A stretch of DNA of 43,994 nucleotides from Desulfovulcanus ferrireducens. GTDB lineage: Bacteria > Desulfobacterota > Desulfovibrionia > Desulfovibrionales > Desulfonatronovibrionaceae. The notes beneath the pieces were generated by a model. The model had not been told where the DNA came from. It worked only from the letters and a program-made list of their open reading frames with translations, and searched no databases. Positions 33,261 to 43,350 of this stretch are shown here, one piece after another. Location: NCBI RefSeq assembly GCF_018704065.1, contig NZ_JAGUQP010000024.1, forward strand, positions 1 through 43,994. The letters run 5' to 3'. Numbering within the stretch: position 1 is the first letter of the stretch; every line of letters starts with the position of its first letter. Made by a program: the position numbers and the translations under genes.

Positions 33261-34628
33261 TCATTCCAACCCATATTTGGCCAGCTTGTACCGTAAAACC
33301 CGCTCTGAAATACCCAAGAGTTTGGCCGCCTTGGTCTTAATCCCTTCTGCCTCTTGCATGGCTTGAGCAATGCGCATCTTTTCCAGCTTTTCAACGGCTT
33401 CCATTAAGGGCAGATCAAAAAAGTCCTGAGCAGGATTAGACCCTTTGCTTTTATGCAAATAAGGAGGCAGGTCTTCCAGGGTAATATAGTCACTTTCAGT
33501 AAGAATCACAGCCCGTTCAACAATATTTTCCAACTCGCGCACATTGCCTGGAAAATCGTAGGTCAGCAAAGCCTCCAGAGCCTTACGCGTAAACCCCTTA
33601 ATTTTCTTGTTATATTTTTGGGCAAACCTGGAGCAAAAAAAATCGGCCAAGGGGCCAATATCTTCTCTTCTCTGACGCAAGGAAGGGATGTTTAGACTGA
33701 ATACATTTAACCGCCAGAAGAGATCTTCTCTAAACTTTTCTTCTTTGACCATTTCTTCAAGATTGCGATTGGTGGCCGCAATGACCCGCACATCAACTTT
33801 AATTTCCTTAACACTGCCCACGCGTGTAAATGTCCCATTTTGCAAAACTCGTAGGAGCTTGGCCTGAAGTTCTAAAGGGAGATCTCCTATCTCATCCAGA
33901 AAAATGGTTCCATGGTCAGCGGCTTCAAACAAACCTTGTTTAGCTTTGGTCGCACCTGTAAAGGCACCCTTTTCATGACCAAAAAGTTCACTCTCAAGAA
34001 GCCCGCCGGGAATGGCCGCGCAATTTATGCGTACCAATGGTTTATCTCGTCTGGGTGATAGGCGATGAATGAGTTCGGCTAAAACCTCCTTTCCCGTGCC
34101 TGACTCCCCTAAAAGAAGCACAGTGGCTTCTGTCTCGGCCACCTTTCTGGCCAAATTCAAGAGTTCCTTCATGGCGGAACTCTGGGCGATGATCTCTTTA
34201 GGCAAAAAATCCGGCCACCCACTTACCTGGCGGCGCAGACTAGCAACTTCCTGTTCAAGCCTGGCCTTCTTTAGGGCCCTCTCGATAAGCAGCAATAATT
34301 CTTCCAGGTGCACAGGCTTGGTTAAATAATAGAAAGCTCCCGCGCGCATGGCGTTCACGGCTTTGTCTACCGAACCAAAAGCAGTAATTATAATGACAGG
34401 GGTTAAGGGCAACCTCTCTTTTAACTCGGTGAGGACTTCCAGCCCATCTGCATCGGGAAGCTTATAATCGAGCAAAATCAAATCAGGGCTCTTATCCTGC
34501 GCCTGCTTGATTCCTTCTGAACCCGTCATAGCAGTAACTACTGAAAAGCCATGATGGACAAGGTAATCAGACAAGATCTCTCTCTGCGAGGAATCGTCTT
34601 CAATGATTAAAATCCTTTTTTGAGACAT
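33261..34628 (-). CDS. Sigma54-dependent response regulator (NtrC family)
   Basis: This 455-residue transcription activator has a receiver domain (about 1-120, phospho-acceptor Asp54 in LLDYKLP) and a AAA+ domain (about 145-375). The AAA+ domain shows Walker A GESGTGKE, the sigma54-contacting GAFTGA loop and Walker B FLDEIGDL. A Fis-type helix-turn-helix lies at the end (AAKLLGISERVLRYKLAKYGLE). It requires RpoN and binds upstream dyads. Its kinase gene lies 42 bases upstream on the same strand. Promoters controlled by it are unknown; the tandem dyads at 36.8 kb are one candidate. Confidence 0.94.
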   Translation of the reverse strand: MSQKRILIIEDDSSQREILSDYLVHHGFSVVTAMTGSEGIKQAQDKSPDLILLDYKLPDADGLEVLTELKERLPLTPVIIITAFGSVDKAVNAMRAGAFYYLTKPVHLEELLLLIERALKKARLEQEVASLRRQVSGWPDFLPKEIIAQSSAMKELLNLARKVAETEATVLLLGESGTGKEVLAELIHRLSPRRDKPLVRINCAAIPGGLLESELFGHEKGAFTGATKAKQGLFEAADHGTIFLDEIGDLPLELQAKLLRVLQNGTFTRVGSVKEIKVDVRVIAATNRNLEEMVKEEKFREDLFWRLNVFSLNIPSLRQRREDIGPLADFFCSRFAQKYNKKIKGFTRKALEALLTYDFPGNVRELENIVERAVILTESDYITLEDLPPYLHKSKGSNPAQDFFDLPLMEAVEKLEKMRIAQAMQEAEGIKTKAAKLLGISERVLRYKLAKYGLE

Positions 34629-34670
34629 ATTTACTTTACTGGTTTATTAGGTTGATTATTTTAGAACCTA

Positions 34671-35930
34671 CTATTCAACCAATACAAGCGTAAACTCAGC
34701 CCCTTCACCGGTCTTACTTTCAACAATGAGCTTACCATTATGGGCCTTGGCCACCATTTCTACTAAAAAAAGACCCAGGCCAAACCCTTGTTTCTTCTGC
34801 GTGTAAAAAGGACGAGCAATCTGCTTCAATACTTGTTTTTCTATGCCAGGACCATTGTCTTTAACCTGAAGATGAACTTTTGCCCCATCTTTCCAGGCTT
34901 TCACCCGCACCCAGCCATTTTCCGGCACAGCTTCCAGGGCATTACGCACCAGGTTGCCCATGGCCCGCATAATCCAGCGGAAATCAGCCTGGAAAGAAAA
35001 GTCATTATCAAGAACCAGCTCAAAATGGACTTTTTTACTTTTGGCCAGAGGTAAATATTCCTCCTCAAGTGCATGCAAAACATCTCTGGCCTCCATTCTC
35101 ACTGGTCTAACCTCTATCCCTTTGGCCACTTGCAGAAGTTCATAAATAAGCTCATCTAACTTTCTAACTTCGTTTTGCATCTTGACAAGAAGCTCTGGCT
35201 TTGGCTGACCGAGCTCTTTTAAATATTGCAGGCCCATACTCAAAGAATTCAGAGGATTGCGTACCTCATGTGCAAGCATAGAGGTCAGCCTTCCCACGGC
35301 GGCCAGCTTTTCAGCGTCTACAAGCTGCTTACTGAGCTCTTCCTGCCTGCGACTTAATCTCTGAAGAAAAATTCCAAGAACAAGCATAATCAAGCTGCCG
35401 CCTGTGGCTGTAATCACACCATGCCATAATCCTTCCATCCACATAACTCTCCCAAAACCGACATCAATACCCACTAAAATATTTACTCCAGGCTGGGGCC
35501 ATTCTTTAAAAGGCTGACACACGTAGTAAATGGAGTCCTTTTCAACCCCTTGACCGCAAGACAAAAGAAGATCTTTTTCAGGGAGTCTCGCCTGAGGAAA
35601 GCTATTTAAAAAGAATCGTTCTTCCTGCCATACTAAAACTCCATAGAGGAGAGGCTGACTTTGAAATTCATCCACCAACCAAGAAAGATTTTTAAGGTAC
35701 GCGGGGGGATCTGGAATGAGACCAACTGTTTCTATATGACCTACTAGCCGAAGACGGACAAAAGACAGGGCCTGCTCAGCTTCCTGGCGTAAATGTTCTT
35801 TAAGCTGAGTGTGAATGAAAAAAAGATGAATGGCCGTGGCTATCCACAAAACCAGGATTCCTGCTCCGGAGATGAGCAGAGGAAGAATGTGTTTAGAATG
35901 GAAAGTTATTTTTAATTTACTAATAGCCAT
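34671..35930 (-). CDS. Membrane sensor histidine kinase
   Basis: This 419-residue kinase has a membrane helix at about 18-40, a ~130-residue extracytoplasmic sensor and a second helix at about 171-190. HisKA carries the phospho-accepting His221 in AHEVRNPLNS. The HATPase domain shows NLVRNALEAVPE (N-box), VKDNGPGI (G1) and KQGFGLGLFLVEM (G2). There is no PAS or HAMP domain of normal length. It pairs with the sigma54 regulator at 33261-34628. The sensor has no motif that I recognise. Upstream lies a 10-base-pair palindrome at 36001-36024. Confidence 0.93.
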   Translation of the reverse strand: MAISKLKITFHSKHILPLLISGAGILVLWIATAIHLFFIHTQLKEHLRQEAEQALSFVRLRLVGHIETVGLIPDPPAYLKNLSWLVDEFQSQPLLYGVLVWQEERFFLNSFPQARLPEKDLLLSCGQGVEKDSIYYVCQPFKEWPQPGVNILVGIDVGFGRVMWMEGLWHGVITATGGSLIMLVLGIFLQRLSRRQEELSKQLVDAEKLAAVGRLTSMLAHEVRNPLNSLSMGLQYLKELGQPKPELLVKMQNEVRKLDELIYELLQVAKGIEVRPVRMEARDVLHALEEEYLPLAKSKKVHFELVLDNDFSFQADFRWIMRAMGNLVRNALEAVPENGWVRVKAWKDGAKVHLQVKDNGPGIEKQVLKQIARPFYTQKKQGFGLGLFLVEMVAKAHNGKLIVESKTGEGAEFTLVLVE

Positions 35931-36024: not shown

Positions 36025-36158
36025 GGAGTTTGTAATTATGGATTTTGAGTTTTTAGTTATTTCAACATGTTGCATTGTGAAAATTCTATTGAAAATTTAT
36101 AAAAACTACTTTTGCAATTGCGTCCAACCAGATATTTACAAGCTTATTGGAGCTCATG

Positions 36159-36225
36159 GATGCATCTGCGAGCTGTTCTGGTTTCGTCATTCTGAGCAAA
36201 GCGAAAAATCTCGTTCTCTACGTTA
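36159..36225 (+). repeat. Second repeat family, copy 1
   Basis: The stretch GATGCATCTG ... TCGTCATTCTGAG ... AAGCGAAAAATCTC ... CTCTACGTTAGG recurs with high similarity, in the same orientation, at 43289-43350. CATTCTGAGCGAAGCG-type words are widespread intergenic repeats in bacteria. The two copies lie on either side of the YeiH and two-component block. Confidence 0.65.
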
Positions 36226-36420: not shown

Positions 36421-36740
36421 ATACCAAAGTTTTTAGCGATTTTCACTCAATGGGTGAGATTGCCACGGACAGCTTCGCTGCCCTCGCAATGACGAACTCG
36501 CTCCTGTCATTGCGAGTGGAACAAAGTGTAGCGAAGCAATCTCAAAGTTTGAACTGCAAAAAATCGCTCAATTTAAACTATAGATAGTTATGGCAAATAG
36601 TCCCGGATATTTAGCTTTGTCACCCCGATGCTCTGCTTTCCGCAAGCTAAGCTCAAGATGGCTTACCCAGCCCTTTGCAAGGCTTTCAAGAAACCAGGAT
36701 TTCTAATCTGGTAGTCAAAATGGGGTTCGGCCATAGATTC
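36421..36740 (-). repeat. Foldback repeat, copy E (inner module plus one arm)
   Basis: The inner module is complete (about 36421-36583, from ATACCAAAG to TTTAAACTATAG). It is followed by a single outer arm ending GGGGTTCGGCCATAG. The other arm is missing: upstream sequence is unrelated AT-rich DNA. Orientation is opposite to B and C. This copy shows the inner module can occur with one arm only. Confidence 0.85.
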
Positions 36741-36771: not shown

Positions 36772-36820
36772 TGTTCCCATTTGGGAACACAAAATTTAAC
36801 ATTGTTCCAGAAAAGGAACA
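36772..36820 (+). promoter_or_regulatory. Tandem activator sites TGTTCC-N6-GGAACA
   Basis: Two dyads with identical arms and spacing lie at 36772-36789 and 36803-36820. Their centres are 31 bases apart, close to three helical turns, so both face the same side of DNA. They lie about 230-290 bases upstream of the sigma54 promoter, a normal distance for enhancer-binding proteins. I saw no other copy of this dyad in the window. Confidence 0.75.
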
Positions 36821-37047
36821 TCTAACCTGCGCAATAAAAGACAAGTCTCAGAAAACCCTACCCGTTCAACGATTGAATTCTCCTGCCAACTTAAAACTTA
36901 CAAGGATAAAAATGGGGAAAAATTTACATATAACATCCTGTTTTTACAGCCTATTTAAAAATCATTCCTTTAAAAATCAGTTTAGACCAAACGTCTAAAA
37001 AATCTCCTCTCCACCAGTCTCCCCCAATCCCCGCCTCAAATAAACTT

Positions 37048-37063
37048 TGGCACCTTCCTTGCT
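37048..37063 (+). promoter_or_regulatory. Sigma54 (-24/-12) promoter of the yeiH gene
   Basis: TGGCAC-CTTCC-TTGCT matches the sigma54 consensus TGGCAC-N5-TTGCW exactly, with GG at 37049-37050 and GC at 37061-37062. The transcript should start near 37074, giving a ~154-base leader to the ATG at 37228. Tandem activator dyads upstream support it. This is the only convincing sigma54 promoter that I found in the window. Confidence 0.85.
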
Positions 37064-37092
37064 TCTGGTGGCCGCGACCGACGTCTTAATAC

Positions 37093-37227: not shown

Positions 37228-38325
37228 ATGTCACAAGAAGTAGGGGCAGGTGTGGCACACGAAGTGTCCGTGGAGAAACCTAAATCTTTTGCCCAGGAAT
37301 TCATAGATAGCATTCCTGGAGCTATTCTTGTTATTGCTGTAGCTGTTGCAGCATACGTTATCGCACCCTATCTGCGCCAGTATCCGCTTTTTAAGACTTA
37401 CCTGTCTTTAAAGGACTTCATTCTTGCTATCTTGTTTGGGATACTGATTAAAAACACCGTTGGTGTTCCTAAAAGATTTGAGCCAGGTCTGAGATTTTCC
37501 ACAATTTTGACCAAGACAGGCATTGTTATAATGGGTGCCAAATATTCTCTAAGCGGCCTGCTAACAGTAGGTGGTCAGGCACTCCTGTACATCAGTATCT
37601 TCCTCTTTGGGACAGCTATCGTCATGATGTGGGTAGCCAAAAAGCTGAACTTACCAACTGCTTTGGGAGCATGTCTAGCTTCTGGCCTTTCCGTTTGCGG
37701 CGTTTCAGCAACAATTGCTATTGCACCGGCTGTTAGAGCAAAAAACCAAGACATGGCCTATTCGATTGCCGTAGTACTCATGTTTGGTCTTCTGGCTCTG
37801 CTGGTTTTCCCGCCCATCGGCAAGTTGCTCAATCTCAGCGATGCCCAGTATGGTGCCTTCTGCGGTGTTGGTATTGTAAACTCAGCACAGGTTCTGGCTG
37901 CCGGATTCGGATATAGCGAACAGGCAGGATTAATCGCTGGTATCTACAATATCGGTAGAGTAATATTCCTACCGTTTGTTGTTCTTCTCCTTGCTATCAT
38001 GGCTGCAAGCCAAGAGGCCGAAATTGCCAAAGAGCAAGTGAATGTTAATAAATTCAAGATTATTGTGGACAAGTTCCCCGTCTTTGTACTCGGCTTCCTC
38101 TTTGTTGTCATGCTCAATACCATGGGACTTTTTAGCAAACCTGAAATCCATCAGGCCAAGGTTTTCATGAACTGGGCCTTTCTCCTCGGTTTTGCAAGTA
38201 TCGGCCTGACTACCAGGCTCGCCGACCTGAAAGCTGCCGGATTATCCGGTTTCGTTTTAGGGTTTCTTGTCGCAGGCACCAAAGCCGCTTTAGCTTTGCT
38301 GGTAGTTCTAACCTTCATGAATTAA
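37228..38325 (+). CDS. YeiH/UPF0324 family membrane protein
   Basis: This 365-residue inner-membrane protein of the YeiH family is often annotated as a putative sulfate exporter. It has about ten hydrophobic helices after a 25-residue polar start. Family signatures visible are LAILFGILIKNTVGVP, GIVIMGAKYSL, the conserved SGLSVCGVSATIAIAPAV (about 153-170) and GIVNSAQVLAAGFGYSEQAG. Substrate is unproven for the family. The ATG at 37228 is chosen because GGAGG lies five bases upstream; a TTG at 37216 is less likely. It is the first gene behind the sigma54 promoter and is followed by a microprotein and a universal stress protein. In a sulfate reducer, an anion or sulfur-oxyanion substrate is a reasonable guess. 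Confidence 0.9.
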   Translation: MSQEVGAGVAHEVSVEKPKSFAQEFIDSIPGAILVIAVAVAAYVIAPYLRQYPLFKTYLSLKDFILAILFGILIKNTVGVPKRFEPGLRFSTILTKTGIVIMGAKYSLSGLLTVGGQALLYISIFLFGTAIVMMWVAKKLNLPTALGACLASGLSVCGVSATIAIAPAVRAKNQDMAYSIAVVLMFGLLALLVFPPIGKLLNLSDAQYGAFCGVGIVNSAQVLAAGFGYSEQAGLIAGIYNIGRVIFLPFVVLLLAIMAASQEAEIAKEQVNVNKFKIIVDKFPVFVLGFLFVVMLNTMGLFSKPEIHQAKVFMNWAFLLGFASIGLTTRLADLKAAGLSGFVLGFLVAGTKAALALLVVLTFMN

Positions 38326-38391: not shown

Positions 38392-38496
38392 ATGAGCGAA
38401 AAATCTAAAAAAGGACTGTCAAAGTCGCGAAAACAGGACTTGGTTGTAATCGTTTTGGGCGTAGCAATGGTTCTCCTGGCCGCCCTGCTCAAATAA
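38392..38496 (+). CDS. 34-residue single-helix membrane microprotein
   Basis: This very short gene lies 66 bases after the YeiH-family gene. A strong AGGAGG (about 38378-38383) precedes the ATG at 38392, and it ends in TAA at 38494. The product starts MSEKSKKGLSKSRKQ, strongly basic, followed by one hydrophobic helix of about 17 residues (LVVIVLGVAMVLLAALL) and a final Lys. This predicts an inner-membrane peptide with its basic end in the cytoplasm. A rho-independent terminator follows 32 bases later, so it is probably the last gene of the sigma54 transcript. I know no named family. A regulator or small subunit of the transporter is a plausible inference. Confidence 0.75.
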   Translation: MSEKSKKGLSKSRKQDLVVIVLGVAMVLLAALLK

Positions 38497-38528: not shown

Positions 38529-38558
38529 AGGGGTAGAATTTTCTACCCCTACTTTTTT
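38529..38558 (+). terminator. Rho-independent terminator after the microprotein gene
   Basis: AGGGGTAGA (38529-38537) and TCTACCCCT (38542-38550) form a perfect 9-base-pair stem around ATTT, followed by ACTTTTTTT. The ribosome site of the stress-protein gene (AAGGAG) comes immediately after, so that gene needs read-through or its own start. Confidence 0.9.
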
Positions 38559-38573
38559 TAAGGAGACTATTTT

Positions 38574-39026
38574 ATGTTTAAAAAGATACTTCTTGCAACG
38601 AATGGCTCCAAGGCATCGAAAAAAGCAGAGGACTATGCCCTCTACCTTGTCAAGACCAGCGGCGCCCAACTGACTGTCGTACACGTCATGGACGACAAGT
38701 TATGCCACTACGGCTACGTTGACCAGCTGGTCCCAGGGACGACCAAAGAGCAATTTGTATCTTACGTCCTTTCAGAACGCGCATCCGCAGCCCAGCAGGC
38801 TATCTACGAATTTAATGAAAAGGCAAAAGAACAAAAAATCCTCTACGACCTGAAACTCAGACGGGGGGAACCCGCCAAGGAGATAGTAGCCGCGGCTGCA
38901 GAAGAGAAATGTGATCTCGTGATTGTCGGCGGCCGTCATCCTTCTGAACGAAAACTGTTCAAATCAACTTGTACGGCAGATAAAGTTGCAAGCCAGAGCC
39001 CTTGCAGCGTAACAGTTATCATCTAA
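38574..39026 (+). CDS. Universal stress protein (UspA family)
   Basis: This 150-residue single-domain Usp protein has an alpha/beta nucleotide-binding-like fold. It begins FKKILLATNGSKASKKAEDYAL and has TVVHVMDD after strand 2 and DLVIVGGRHPSERKLFKST near the C-terminus. ATP-binding members show G-2x-G-9x-G(S/T) there. Here the second and third glycines are replaced, so ATP binding is doubtful. AAGGAG precedes the ATG. It follows the YeiH-microprotein unit behind a terminator. Usp proteins next to transporters often act as stress-linked modulators, but its role here is inference. Confidence 0.9.
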   Translation: MFKKILLATNGSKASKKAEDYALYLVKTSGAQLTVVHVMDDKLCHYGYVDQLVPGTTKEQFVSYVLSERASAAQQAIYEFNEKAKEQKILYDLKLRRGEPAKEIVAAAAEEKCDLVIVGGRHPSERKLFKSTCTADKVASQSPCSVTVII

Positions 39027-39267: not shown

Positions 39268-39363
39268 GAGTCTGTGCCCCCTACTCAGAGGACAATTTTC
39301 CATAATTTCTTTTCAGCCCTGATTTCTAATCTGGTAGTCAAAATGGGGTTTGGCCACAGACTC
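39268..39363. repeat. Foldback repeat, copy F (96-base minimal form)
   Basis: The unit begins GAGTCTGTG and ends CACAGACTC, perfect 9-base terminal inverted repeats. Inside are GAGGACAATTTTCCATAAT, matching the outer end of copy D's right arm, and CTGATTTCTAATCTGGTAGT, matching copy E's arm end. It thus contains only the outer ends of both arms. No gene lies between 39027 and 39478. Confidence 0.85.
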
Positions 39364-39478
39364 CTGACGCTTTTGAGGTTGACCAAGGCTTTTTTTTGCT
39401 TATATTAATTGGCTCCACCACGCTCGAATCTGTTTACGAACCCCTCCCCTTTTGATATTTCATGTTTAAAGGATGATT

Positions 39479-40387
39479 ATGGATCGTATACGCCTGTTTT
39501 CAATCATATTTACCGTCTTATTTTTGTTGGCCTCGGCAACACCTCGCTTAAATGCTGAGACCAAGGAGAAACCGGGATCGCAGAAAACCGTCTATTTTGG
39601 GGTAATCACACTCTATCATCCCCTGGTCATGTACAGAAATTATCAGCCTTTTATGGATTACCTTACAAAACATACCCCCTATCATTTCGAACTCAAAATA
39701 AGCCAGGACTACAAAAATATTATTACTTACCTGCGCGATGGCAGTGTGCAGGTGGCCATGCTCGCCGGCTTGACATACCTTGAGGCAAAAAAGGCTGCCG
39801 GAGTTATCCCACTTATGGCGACACTAAGGGAAGACAAAAGACCTCTATGTCAGGGCATTTTCATTACAAGGGCTGACAACAAAAAAATAAACACCATTGC
39901 AGACATTCGAGGTAAACGCTTTGCCTTTGCGTCCGAGCGCTCAACATCTGGAAACCTTGCCCCCCTCTATCACCTGTACGCCAGGGAGGGCATAAGGCTT
40001 ACTGACCTCGGTTATTACAAAAACCTCAGATATCATGACTCGGTGGCAAGAGAGGTACTCAGGGGCAACTTTGATGCGGGAGTCGTACTTGACTCTGTTG
40101 CGATGAAATATAAGGACATGGGAATAAAATTTATCGGTCAAACAGATCCGTTACCTCGATTTTTAATCGTAGCGCGTAAAGGCACGGACCACGAAGTAAT
40201 GCGATCTTTGAAGAAAGCGCTCCTTGAGCTTAACTACGACAACCCGGCAAATAAAGTGATAATGGACTCATGGGATGTGAATATAAGGTACGGTTTTGCC
40301 GAAGTAGCTGATTCCGACTACGAGCCGATCAGGAATATGATCTCATATCTCGCTAAAGAAGGGGTAAAGTTAGGGGTTAGAAAGTGA
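39479..40387 (+). CDS. PhnD-like periplasmic binding protein
   Basis: This 302-residue protein has an N-terminal signal peptide (hydrophobic to about residue 20, cleavage near LNA). The rest is a phosphate/phosphonate-binding-protein-like fold (PhnD, about 35-295). Landmarks are VYFGVITLYHPLVMYRNYQPF, SVQVAMLAGLTYLEA, ADIRGKRFAFASERSTSGNL and VLRGNFDAGVVLDSV. Ligand identity cannot be read; relatives bind phosphonates, phosphite and other oxyanions. No ABC permease or ATPase follows. Its last bases overlap the GTG of a histidine kinase, so it more likely feeds a sensor than a transporter. AAAGGA five bases upstream supports the ATG at 39479. Confidence 0.87.
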   Translation: MDRIRLFSIIFTVLFLLASATPRLNAETKEKPGSQKTVYFGVITLYHPLVMYRNYQPFMDYLTKHTPYHFELKISQDYKNIITYLRDGSVQVAMLAGLTYLEAKKAAGVIPLMATLREDKRPLCQGIFITRADNKKINTIADIRGKRFAFASERSTSGNLAPLYHLYAREGIRLTDLGYYKNLRYHDSVAREVLRGNFDAGVVLDSVAMKYKDMGIKFIGQTDPLPRFLIVARKGTDHEVMRSLKKALLELNYDNPANKVIMDSWDVNIRYGFAEVADSDYEPIRNMISYLAKEGVKLGVRK

Positions 40388-41865
40388 GATTTTTCTTGGG
40401 GGTTCAAAGCAAGTTCATCCTGGCAACATCTCTCATTATCTTTATCTTCGCAGGCCTTGGAGGCTATATAATAATCAAGCGGGAGGAAAAACTCTATACC
40501 CAGGACACAATTCATCAGGCAAGGATCATCGCGGAAATATCAGGAGTGATTTTCACCAATGCTCTGGTTTATAAGGAACTAGGGCTCGTGGAAGATATAA
40601 GCCTGACAGACTACCTAGATTATTATGTGTCAGACATAATGCACAAGGATCAACGCATAGTCTATGTGGTTGTTCTTGACCCTAAGGGCAGGGTACTGTC
40701 CCATAGCAACATAAAGGAGTACGGCAAAATATACACAGACCATATAACGAAACAGGCTCTTAAAGCAACAGACATAACAGTTCAAAAAACCACAGACAAC
40801 AACGGAAACGAGATAGTCGATGTCGCTGCCCCCTTGAAAATAAGCACAAAACACTGGGGCGTGTGCCGGGTCGGTTTTTCCCTGCAAGAGGTCAAAGAGG
40901 GAATCAGGACACTAAGAAATGAAATTATCTCCATGATAGCCCTGATGCTGATGGGCTCTTTGGCCTTTATCGGCATCTTTGCTAAAACTTTTGCAACTCC
41001 ACTTATAAAATTGGCAAAGACCATGGACCAAATTACCGAGAAAGGAGACCTGGATATCAAATGTCCTGAACCAACTCCCAGGCGAGATGAGATCGGCAGA
41101 CTCCAGGCGAGCTTCTCCTGGATGGTTAAGAGGTTGCGTGAAGCAAACAAAGAAAAAATGAAGGCCTTTGACATGATGTGTCAGACTGAAAAGATGGCCA
41201 CCGTGGGCAATCTCGCCGCAGGAGTTGCTCATGAGATAAACAACCCCCTTGGAGGGATAATCCTCTGCTTCAAAAATCTCACAGAAACCGACATGGATGA
41301 GAAGACAAAAAAGGAACATATAGAGGTAATCAACTCTGGCCTCATTAAAATCCAAAATACAGTTAGAGAACTCCTGGACTTTGCAAGAAAAACACCTATC
41401 ACCATCGTCCCATCATCCATTAACTCTCTCCTCGAAGAAAGTCTCAACTTAGCGGACGCCCTGCTATCCAAGAAAGGCATAAACATCAAAAAAGAGCTTA
41501 GCCAAGATATTCCATTGCTCCCTGTAGACCCGAATAAGATTCAACAGGTATTCCTTAATATAATTATAAATGCCGCCCATGCCATGGGAGACAGAGGCAC
41601 ACTTTTTCTTTCCTCAAAGGTAGAAGACGAGATGTGCGTCATCTCAATAACTGATACGGGACCGGGAATGGACCCTGAAATATTGGCCCGAATATTCGAC
41701 CCTTTTTTCACCACAAAAAAACCGGGAAAAGGGACAGGATTAGGTCTTGCCGTGTCTAAAGCAATTGTAGAACAGCACGGAGGGAGCATAGAGGTTATTT
41801 CTAAAAAAGGGGCCGGTGCAAAGTTTATCGTAAAACTGCCCATAAAGGGAAATGAAAAGACATGA
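40384..41865 (+). CDS. Membrane histidine kinase coupled to the binding protein
   Basis: This 493-residue kinase has a membrane helix at about 10-31, a periplasmic Cache-like sensor at about 35-180 (YVVVLDPKGRVLSHSN, DVAAPLKISTKHWGVCRVGFS), and a second helix at about 181-203. A HAMP domain follows at about 204-255 and HisKA with His283 in AHEINNPLG. The HATPase domain has IIINAAHAMGD, TDTGPGM and GKGTGLGLAVSK. It starts with GTG and shares four bases with the upstream PhnD-like gene. It ends in a four-base ATGA overlap with the regulator gene, so the three are one translational unit. Sensing through the binding protein is likely by analogy with other solute-binding-protein/kinase pairs. Confidence 0.93.
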   Translation: MRFFLGVQSKFILATSLIIFIFAGLGGYIIIKREEKLYTQDTIHQARIIAEISGVIFTNALVYKELGLVEDISLTDYLDYYVSDIMHKDQRIVYVVVLDPKGRVLSHSNIKEYGKIYTDHITKQALKATDITVQKTTDNNGNEIVDVAAPLKISTKHWGVCRVGFSLQEVKEGIRTLRNEIISMIALMLMGSLAFIGIFAKTFATPLIKLAKTMDQITEKGDLDIKCPEPTPRRDEIGRLQASFSWMVKRLREANKEKMKAFDMMCQTEKMATVGNLAAGVAHEINNPLGGIILCFKNLTETDMDEKTKKEHIEVINSGLIKIQNTVRELLDFARKTPITIVPSSINSLLEESLNLADALLSKKGINIKKELSQDIPLLPVDPNKIQQVFLNIIINAAHAMGDRGTLFLSSKVEDEMCVISITDTGPGMDPEILARIFDPFFTTKKPGKGTGLGLAVSKAIVEQHGGSIEVISKKGAGAKFIVKLPIKGNEKT

Positions 41866-43220
41866 AACGCAGAATACTGCTTATAGAAGATGAACTTTCA
41901 GTAAGACTTGGAGTAAACCACGCTCTCGCTGGTGCTGGTTATTCTGTAACCGCCTGCGAAGATGGAGACGAAGGCATCAAAACTTTGAGTCGGGAGCCCT
42001 TTGACCTGATTATAACTGACCTGAGGCTTCCTGGCCTAAGCGGCATGGAAGTCCTTACCCAAGCCAAAGAAATCCGCCCGGATGTTGGGGTAATAATTAT
42101 TACCGCCTTTCCTGAGATAGAGACCGCTGTGTCTGCCATAAAGCAGGGAGCCTTTGACTACCTGAGCAAACCATTTACAAATGAAGGGCTTCTCATAGTA
42201 GTCGACAGATACTTTAACTATCGTGAACTCCAGCTCGAGAATGTCAGACTCAAGGAAACTATCAGGGAGAAGACCCAGTTTGAAAATTTTGTAGGCGAAA
42301 GCTCAGCGATGAAGGCGGTGTTTGATCTTATAGCCACTGTAGCCCCCACAGACGTACCAGTCCTCATCCAGGGCGAAAGCGGGACAGGAAAGGAACTCGT
42401 GGCCAATGCCGTCCACAACCTAAGCCCGAGAAAAGACAAGCCTTTCATAAAGATAAACTGTGCGGCCATCCCTGAAAATCTCCTTGAATCAGAGCTCTTC
42501 GGCCACGAAAAAGGTGCCTTTACCGGGGCAATTCAGGCGAGAAAGGGCAAGTTCGAGGTCGCAGACGGCGGTACCATCTTCTTTGACGAAATCGGAGACA
42601 TGCCGTTCAGCCTGCAGGCAAAGCTCCTCAGGGTGCTTGAGGACCAGGAAATTACCAGGCTCGGTGGATATAAGAGTTTCAAGGTGGATGTCAGGACGAT
42701 CTTTGCCACGGCCAAAGACCTAAAAGAGGCTATAACGGCAGGGACCTTCAGGAAGGATCTCTTTTACAGAATAAATGTAGTACCCATCCACTTGCCACCT
42801 TTAAGGGACAGGGGAGAGGATCTAACCGCACTAATAGATCATTTTTTAAAGGAATATTCCAGTAAATACGGCAAGCAAGGACTCGAAATTTCACCTGATG
42901 CCTACAAAAGTCTCCTTGCCTACGACTACCCCGGCAACGTTAGGGAACTCAAGAATGCAATAGAGAGGGCCGTGCTTCTATCAACAGGCAGCCGTATCCA
43001 TGTCACCCACCTACCTTCAGTCATCAGGAAACTGGCCGAAGATCTTCCCTGTGTTTCAGAAGATCTGCCTCTTGAGGAAGGAGTCAAATGTTATGAAAGG
43101 CAGAGAATTCTCAAGGCCCTTGAACAGACCAGGGGCAAAAAGATTGAGGCCGCCCAAAGACTTGGCATAAGCAGAAAAGTCCTCTGGAAGAAACTCAAGG
43201 AGCTAAACATAGATATCTAA
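41862..43220 (+). CDS. Sigma54-dependent response regulator (NtrC family), second
   Basis: This 452-residue activator has a receiver (about 1-120; Asp53 in IITDLRLPG), a AAA+ domain (about 140-375) with Walker A GESGTGKE, the GAFTGA loop and FFDEIGDM, and a C-terminal Fis-type helix-turn-helix (AAQRLGISRKVLWKKLKELNIDI). It is coupled to the kinase by ATGA. As the nearest sigma54 activator co-located with the YeiH block, it is the leading candidate to bind the dyads at 36.8 kb. The regulator at 33261-34628 is the alternative. The gene uses ATA and AGG codons more freely than housekeeping genes of the window, by eye. Confidence 0.94.
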   Translation: MKRRILLIEDELSVRLGVNHALAGAGYSVTACEDGDEGIKTLSREPFDLIITDLRLPGLSGMEVLTQAKEIRPDVGVIIITAFPEIETAVSAIKQGAFDYLSKPFTNEGLLIVVDRYFNYRELQLENVRLKETIREKTQFENFVGESSAMKAVFDLIATVAPTDVPVLIQGESGTGKELVANAVHNLSPRKDKPFIKINCAAIPENLLESELFGHEKGAFTGAIQARKGKFEVADGGTIFFDEIGDMPFSLQAKLLRVLEDQEITRLGGYKSFKVDVRTIFATAKDLKEAITAGTFRKDLFYRINVVPIHLPPLRDRGEDLTALIDHFLKEYSSKYGKQGLEISPDAYKSLLAYDYPGNVRELKNAIERAVLLSTGSRIHVTHLPSVIRKLAEDLPCVSEDLPLEEGVKCYERQRILKALEQTRGKKIEAAQRLGISRKVLWKKLKELNIDI

Positions 43221-43288
43221 CAGATACTACACGGACCTTACACTATTATGGCCATTCAGATCCCTGTGGGCCGACCAGCATGCAACGG

Positions 43289-43350
43289 GTGCATCTGTCA
43301 GGTATCCTGATTACGTCATTCTGGGTGAAGCGAAAAATCTCTACGTAACG
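43289..43350 (+). repeat. Second repeat family, copy 2
   Basis: GGTGCATCTG ... ACGTCATTCTGGG ... AAGCGAAAAATCTC ... TACGTAACG is a close relative, in the same orientation, of the sequence at 36159-36225. It lies about 70 bases past the second sigma54 regulator. The gap 43221-43552 holds no gene. Confidence 0.65.

Follow-up and report, generated by a model that had tools for sequence, protein, structure and literature searches.

A conserved sigma-54 enhancer-promoter region at a yeiH locus of Desulfovulcanus ferrireducens and its probable partner regulator

We analyzed the genes around a candidate sigma-54 control region in a 43,994-nucleotide stretch of the Desulfovulcanus ferrireducens genome (the window). 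The gene predicted to be controlled lies at 37228 to 38325 on the plus strand and encodes a 365-amino-acid transporter of the YeiH/putative sulfate exporter (PSE) family, based on a PF03601 match (E = 2.8e-59) that covers 302 of 304 positions, as expected for a whole-protein member. The transporter scored 96 bits against the NCBIfam YeiH model TIGR00698, short of the 232.6-bit cut-off; thus, it is a divergent YeiH relative that need not share the sulfite role. Homologs of the transporter, at 72 to 85% in search alignments, were taken from five genome records, L023 to L027 (Desulfocapsa, Thermodesulfobacteriales, Desulfococcaceae, Thermodesulfobacteriota, and Desulfobulbaceae MAGs), and from G089, G340, and G359. 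L039 is the G089 locus, and L024 and L026 correspond to G445 and G447.

Directly 3' of yeiH is a 34-amino-acid, single-helix membrane open reading frame (ORF) (LSKSRKQDL...; 38392 to 38496, plus strand) that no Pfam or NCBIfam family matches. Each of the eight loci compared (the window; L023, position 10152; L024, 10069; L025, 10170; L026, 10069; L027, 10112; L039, 8488; and L040, 9849) has such an ORF after the transporter, 26 to 34 amino acids long with a common SKxRKxD start and one hydrophobic helix; this includes loci without the dyads and regulator described below. The ORF likely encodes a small membrane partner of this YeiH branch. Between this ORF and a universal stress protein gene (usp; 38574 to 39026, plus strand; PF00582), which adjoins yeiH in relatives, is a hairpin with a T-run (38529 to 38550, plus strand) that resembles an intrinsic terminator by consensus match only; a similar hairpin with a T-run occupies the same interval in L039. 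The hairpin suggests partial read-through into usp.

Three further plus-strand genes follow. The first encodes a PhnD/PtxB/ArrX-like periplasmic oxyanion-binding protein (39473 to 40387), identified by PF12974 and PDB matches and proposed as the sensor input. The second encodes a membrane histidine kinase with sCache_3, HAMP, HisKA, and HATPase domain matches (40384 to 41865), and the third an NtrC-type response regulator (41862 to 43220), which its domains and comparison with relatives suggest as the activator that binds both dyads. On the other side of the promoter, a second kinase (34671 to 35930) and a second NtrC-type regulator (33261 to 34628) are encoded on the minus strand, the kinase gene divergently from yeiH. 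Both regulators have receiver, Sigma54_activat, and HTH_8 domains and a GAFTGA motif, the combination of AAA+ domain, GAFTGA, and Fis-type helix-turn-helix that marks a sigma-54 activator.

Several repeats accompany these genes. A 43-nucleotide direct repeat (93%) occurs just upstream of the dyads (36698 to 36740) and upstream of the PhnD-like gene (39321 to 39363), and a second repeat pair (36158 to 36212 and 43287 to 43341) flanks the cluster. Both pairs may mark the boundaries of a cassette or be what remains of mobile elements. A MITE- or REP-like imperfect inverted repeat of 39 nucleotides, TGAGATTGCC...GCAATCTCA, lies at 36455 to 36544, in the interval that separates the dyads from the upstream kinase gene.

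Upstream of yeiH are two exact TGTTCC-N6-GGAACA dyads, TGTTCCCATTTGGGAACA (36772 to 36789) and TGTTCCAGAAAAGGAACA (36803 to 36820), to which no strand applies and which fit the form GTT-N10-AAC. They are followed on the plus strand by an exact -24/-12 promoter, TGGCACCTTCCTTGC (37048 to 37062), with the sigma-54 signature GG-N10-GC within TGGCA and TTGC; transcription would be expected to start near 37074. The first dyad starts 276 bp and the second 245 bp upstream of the -24 element; the 31 bp between these starts is 2.95 turns at 10.5 bp per turn and therefore places both dyads on one side of the helix. The sequence-only reading had described a perfect promoter, two dyads about 240 and 270 bases upstream of it in helical phase, and two NtrC-type regulators on either side; the elements agree letter for letter, and the phasing and the regulators were confirmed.

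A search for further dyads, which the same reading had advised, found no exact dyad besides these two in the whole 2.59-Mb genome. From base composition, about 0.14 exact dyads would be expected per genome, and about 5e-8 pairs spaced 28 to 34 bp. Exact promoter matches would be expected 0.05 times in the window and 0.0002 times in the 400 bp that follow the dyads; by itself, the promoter would be weaker evidence than the dyads. The dyads and the promoter are real, far beyond chance. Weak dyads (at most 2 mismatches) are no commoner in the genome than matches to a reversed-pattern control (122 versus 125), and nowhere else does it hold a tandem pair spaced 31 bp with at most 3 mismatches. Thus, nothing points to a broad regulon in the host genome, and we rejected one. 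An RNA element at the dyads was also rejected, given that the window has no Rfam match and the dyads are upstream of the transcript. For an IHF site between enhancer and promoter, we found only one-mismatch matches, in the window and L025, and none in the other three loci; therefore, we do not claim one. Exact dyads in 60 relatives are scattered singletons or repeats (for example, seven near-identical copies in G058), and we treated them as chance or unrelated.

The design recurs in distant genomes. A tandem dyad pair and a -24/-12 site precede the transporter in L023, L025, L027, and L039, from four distant Desulfobacterota genomes; in L027 the promoter region precedes a usp-yeiH pair. One dyad of the L023 pair is strongly degraded (4 mismatches), and both L025 dyads are imperfect. 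Scanning related loci for pairs spaced 20 to 44 bp yielded ten distinct pairs, five of them from the single genome G089. All ten are spaced 31 to 33 bp, and reversed sequence gave none. A -24/-12 site with 0 or 1 mismatch follows nine of the ten, compared to a background of 0.04 per 430 bp, and lies 179 to 237 bp from the center of the second dyad in eight of these nine and 379 bp in the ninth. The tenth pair has TGGCAT-N5-TTGT about 249 bp on. Across all twenty dyads, G, T, and C at positions 2, 3, and 5 and A and C at positions 16 and 17 are invariant. This non-random conservation strongly supports the earlier claim of a complete sigma-54 control region.

In G089, where the binding-protein and regulator genes are each present in two copies, there are four more tandem pairs (L039, 11755 to 11804, 13715 to 13763, and 16232 to 16281; L072, 6215 to 6264). 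Three of them lie ahead of genes for an O/P-type porin, Rex, and a PhsA-like molybdoenzyme, and the fourth precedes an uncharacterized ORF; together they would represent an enlarged regulon. The molybdoenzyme scored 318 bits as PhsA-like and 112 bits as ArrA in NCBIfam, all below cut-offs. An O/P-type porin, a Rex repressor, and a PhsA-best molybdoenzyme fit a sulfur-redox theme. A further tandem pair in L027 (449 to 498, sigma-54 site at 687) lies ahead of an unclassified ORF and methyl-accepting chemotaxis genes; a chemoreceptor gene is also under AioR control (PMC5335332). The Desulfocapsa locus carries, ahead of its full-length regulator gene, a truncated second copy without the DNA-binding domain (L023, 13700 to 14662), which is a decayed duplicate.

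We compared the locus with known systems. As in NtrC-type enhancers, inverted repeats lie upstream of a -24/-12 promoter, where a phosphorylated AAA+ activator binds; the NtrC half-site, TGCACC, differs from the half-site here. A closer likeness is to the arsenic systems AioXSR and ArrXSR, which share the gene order PhnD-like binding protein, kinase, and NtrC-family sigma-54 regulator. This order (39473 to 43220 here) is also found in L023, L025, and L071 and is incomplete or split in G089. The arsenic systems likewise have a GTT-N10-AAC consensus and a -24/-12 promoter preceded by two palindromes in tandem (PMC5335332, PMC3834237, PMC5908839). The AioR site, GTT-N10-AAC, has spacing identical to that of the dyads (PMC5335332), and two tandem palindromes with a -24/-12 site were reported for 12 of 12 aioBA promoters accompanied by aioXSR and for none without it (PMC3834237). 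The locus differs in its target, a YeiH/PSE transporter and usp rather than arsenic oxidase or reductase (aioBA, arrAB); in its binding protein, which is nearer PtxB and lacks the pocket cysteine; and in its enhancer, about 200 to 240 bp from the promoter.

The nearest functional precedent, likened by published gene content rather than by binding motif, is the Desulfovibrio vulgaris DVU0539-0545 module. In D. vulgaris, the DVU0540/DVU0539 and DVU0945/DVU0946 two-component systems and the PSE operons DVU0542-0545, DVU0943-0946, and DVU2133-2132 show a sigma-54 regulator driving an operon that combines a PSE transporter with universal stress proteins and a small membrane protein, and the regulator genes adjoin the target operon (PMC3333781, PMC4641369, PMC10102598). 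Through sigma-54 promoters, DVU0539 and DVU0946 regulate PSE/usp operons (PMC3333781, PMC4641369), and DVU0539-0545, the related PSE module, has molybdate phenotypes and responds to molybdate (PMC10102598). Unlike the locus here, these systems are not described with a PhnD-like component (PMC10102598). Kazakov et al. reported regulator-motif groups with TGT and ACA half-sites 9, 11, or 12 bp apart, and the dyads fit this form as TGT-N12-ACA (PMC4641369). In Salmonella YeiE-YeiH, a YeiH-family membrane protein is also under a dedicated oxyanion sensor (PMC12880088); the Salmonella regulator is a LysR-type one-component protein, whereas a three-component sigma-54 switch is predicted here.

The resemblance to the arsenic systems bears on the ligand. 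The system could be a true arsenic sensor, of AioX/ArrX function, that controls a transporter; the architecture and GTT-N10-AAC spacing are those of arsenic systems, and ArrX is among the best PDB matches of the binding protein. However, by sequence this protein matched PtxB, a phosphite-binding protein, better (1e-19) than ArrX (4e-14) or AioX (1e-4). It retains STS and HD as pocket motifs, but where AioX, ArrX, and ArxX have a conserved pocket cysteine (PMC5908839), each of the six compared orthologs has Ala or Gly, at a position inferred via the ArrX alignment. Furthermore, no aio or arr genes were seen among the window ORFs or in the examined clusters of relatives, and the G089 molybdoenzyme is far closer to PhsA than to ArrA by the sub-cut-off scores above. 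An arsenic ligand is therefore unlikely; this alternative concerns only the ligand. By analogy, the ligand may instead be an oxyanion of sulfur or a similar one, which YeiH would export; this is the most speculative part of our interpretation. Sulfite is favored because YeiH gives Salmonella sulfite resistance and because sulfite is similar to phosphite in shape. Salmonella yeiH is also sulfite-induced (PMC12880088). A partial literature search found no sulfite-sensing PhnD-type sigma-54 system.

Which regulator works the switch was addressed by comparison among genomes. Orthologs of the downstream regulator (41862 to 43220), at 64 to 84% identity, are present in the genomes of L023, L025, L027, and L039, inside the cluster in three of the four. 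G445 and G447 have the transporter, no match to this regulator at threshold, and no dyads; G359 has the transporter, only a 50% relative of the regulator with a different recognition helix, and no dyads. Dyads are thus found in five of five genomes with an ortholog (64 to 100%) and in none of three without (one-sided Fisher, ~0.02; G340, cut by a contig end, was left out). The recognition segment LGISRKxLWKKxKxL is kept in the orthologs of dyad genomes and differs in the upstream regulator (33261 to 34628).

This co-inheritance picks the downstream regulator, not the upstream one, as the probable partner of the dyads. The upstream pair (33261 to 35930) is nearby, with a GAFTGA-bearing sigma-54 activator and a kinase gene divergent from yeiH, and might activate the promoter alone or jointly with the downstream regulator. 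It is missing, however, beside every other dyad-bearing yeiH locus, and the orthologs of its regulator, at 84% in G001 of the same genus and at 65% in G004 and G010, are in genomes that have neither an exact dyad nor the downstream kinase. In G001 the pair adjoins hemA-region genes, which also neighbor it here, so that it is part of the host locus rather than of a cassette. We therefore rejected the upstream regulator, an old lineage resident, as dyad partner, and consider any role for it at this promoter very improbable. Thus, one of the two candidate activators named by the sequence-only reading gained comparative support and the other did not; its remark that few windows show promoter, enhancer, and activators together overstated the rarity, as such co-location is common in Desulfovibrionales (PMC4641369). 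It is also highly unlikely that the dyads serve some other DNA-binding protein, whether repressor or global regulator, beside a coincidental sigma-54 promoter: a palindrome alone does not name its protein, and those ending in TGT/ACA are common, but tandem spacing (31 to 33 bp) and distance to the -24/-12 sites are fixed, the dyads co-occur with one sigma-54 activator, several such pairs surround its genes in G089, and the host genome has only two exact dyads.

We conclude, with a probability of roughly 0.85, that this region is an enhancer-promoter with 41862-43220 as its partner regulator, whatever the ligand. The region is best read as the enhancer-promoter through which a mobile three-component switch, AioXSR/ArrXSR-like in design, would turn on YeiH. 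In the predicted sequence of events, the PhnD-like protein binds an oxyanion in the periplasm and signals via the membrane kinase, which would phosphorylate the downstream regulator. Phosphorylated dimers would then bind both helically phased dyads and assemble an ATPase ring, which would loop to RNA polymerase-sigma-54 at 37048 to 37062 and open the yeiH promoter. The transcript would comprise yeiH, the small membrane ORF, and, beyond the terminator-like hairpin, usp.

The distribution of the system is patchy, which suggests horizontal transfer. Transporter and regulator share 65 to 85% identity with their counterparts in genomes that reach only 53 to 56% identity in isoleucyl-tRNA synthetase, compared to 66 to 71% for this enzyme among family members, and 60 relatives, the majority from the same order, yielded no close homolog of the downstream kinase. 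The place of the upstream pair in its G001 neighborhood marks that pair as resident and the yeiH-sensor cluster as the newcomer. Horizontal acquisition of the cassette together with its enhancer would be the simplest account. More tentatively, and as a possibility rather than an expectation, the cluster may belong to an undescribed AioXSR-like branch in which a PhnD-fold protein detects sulfite, or a different sulfur oxyanion, in the periplasm and induces a YeiH-type exporter; the branch would spread among sulfur-metabolizing Desulfobacterota as a cassette of cis enhancer and trans regulator, and in G089 it would control an O/P-type porin, a Rex repressor, and a PhsA-like molybdoenzyme as well.

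The predicted sigma-54 three-component switch is of an already known kind, and what would be new here is an AioXSR-like design wired to a YeiH transporter. The probable YeiH/PSE target gene, the third component (39473 to 40387), and the AioXSR resemblance were identified beyond the sequence-only reading. With these assignments, YeiH/PSE, a widespread and poorly understood transporter family in sulfur-cycle bacteria, would gain a likely regulon along with a regulator and its binding motif. The assignments would also carry the three-component design of the arsenic systems over to another oxyanion, probably one related to sulfur, and suggest that an enhancer and its activator are heritable as one transferable cassette.
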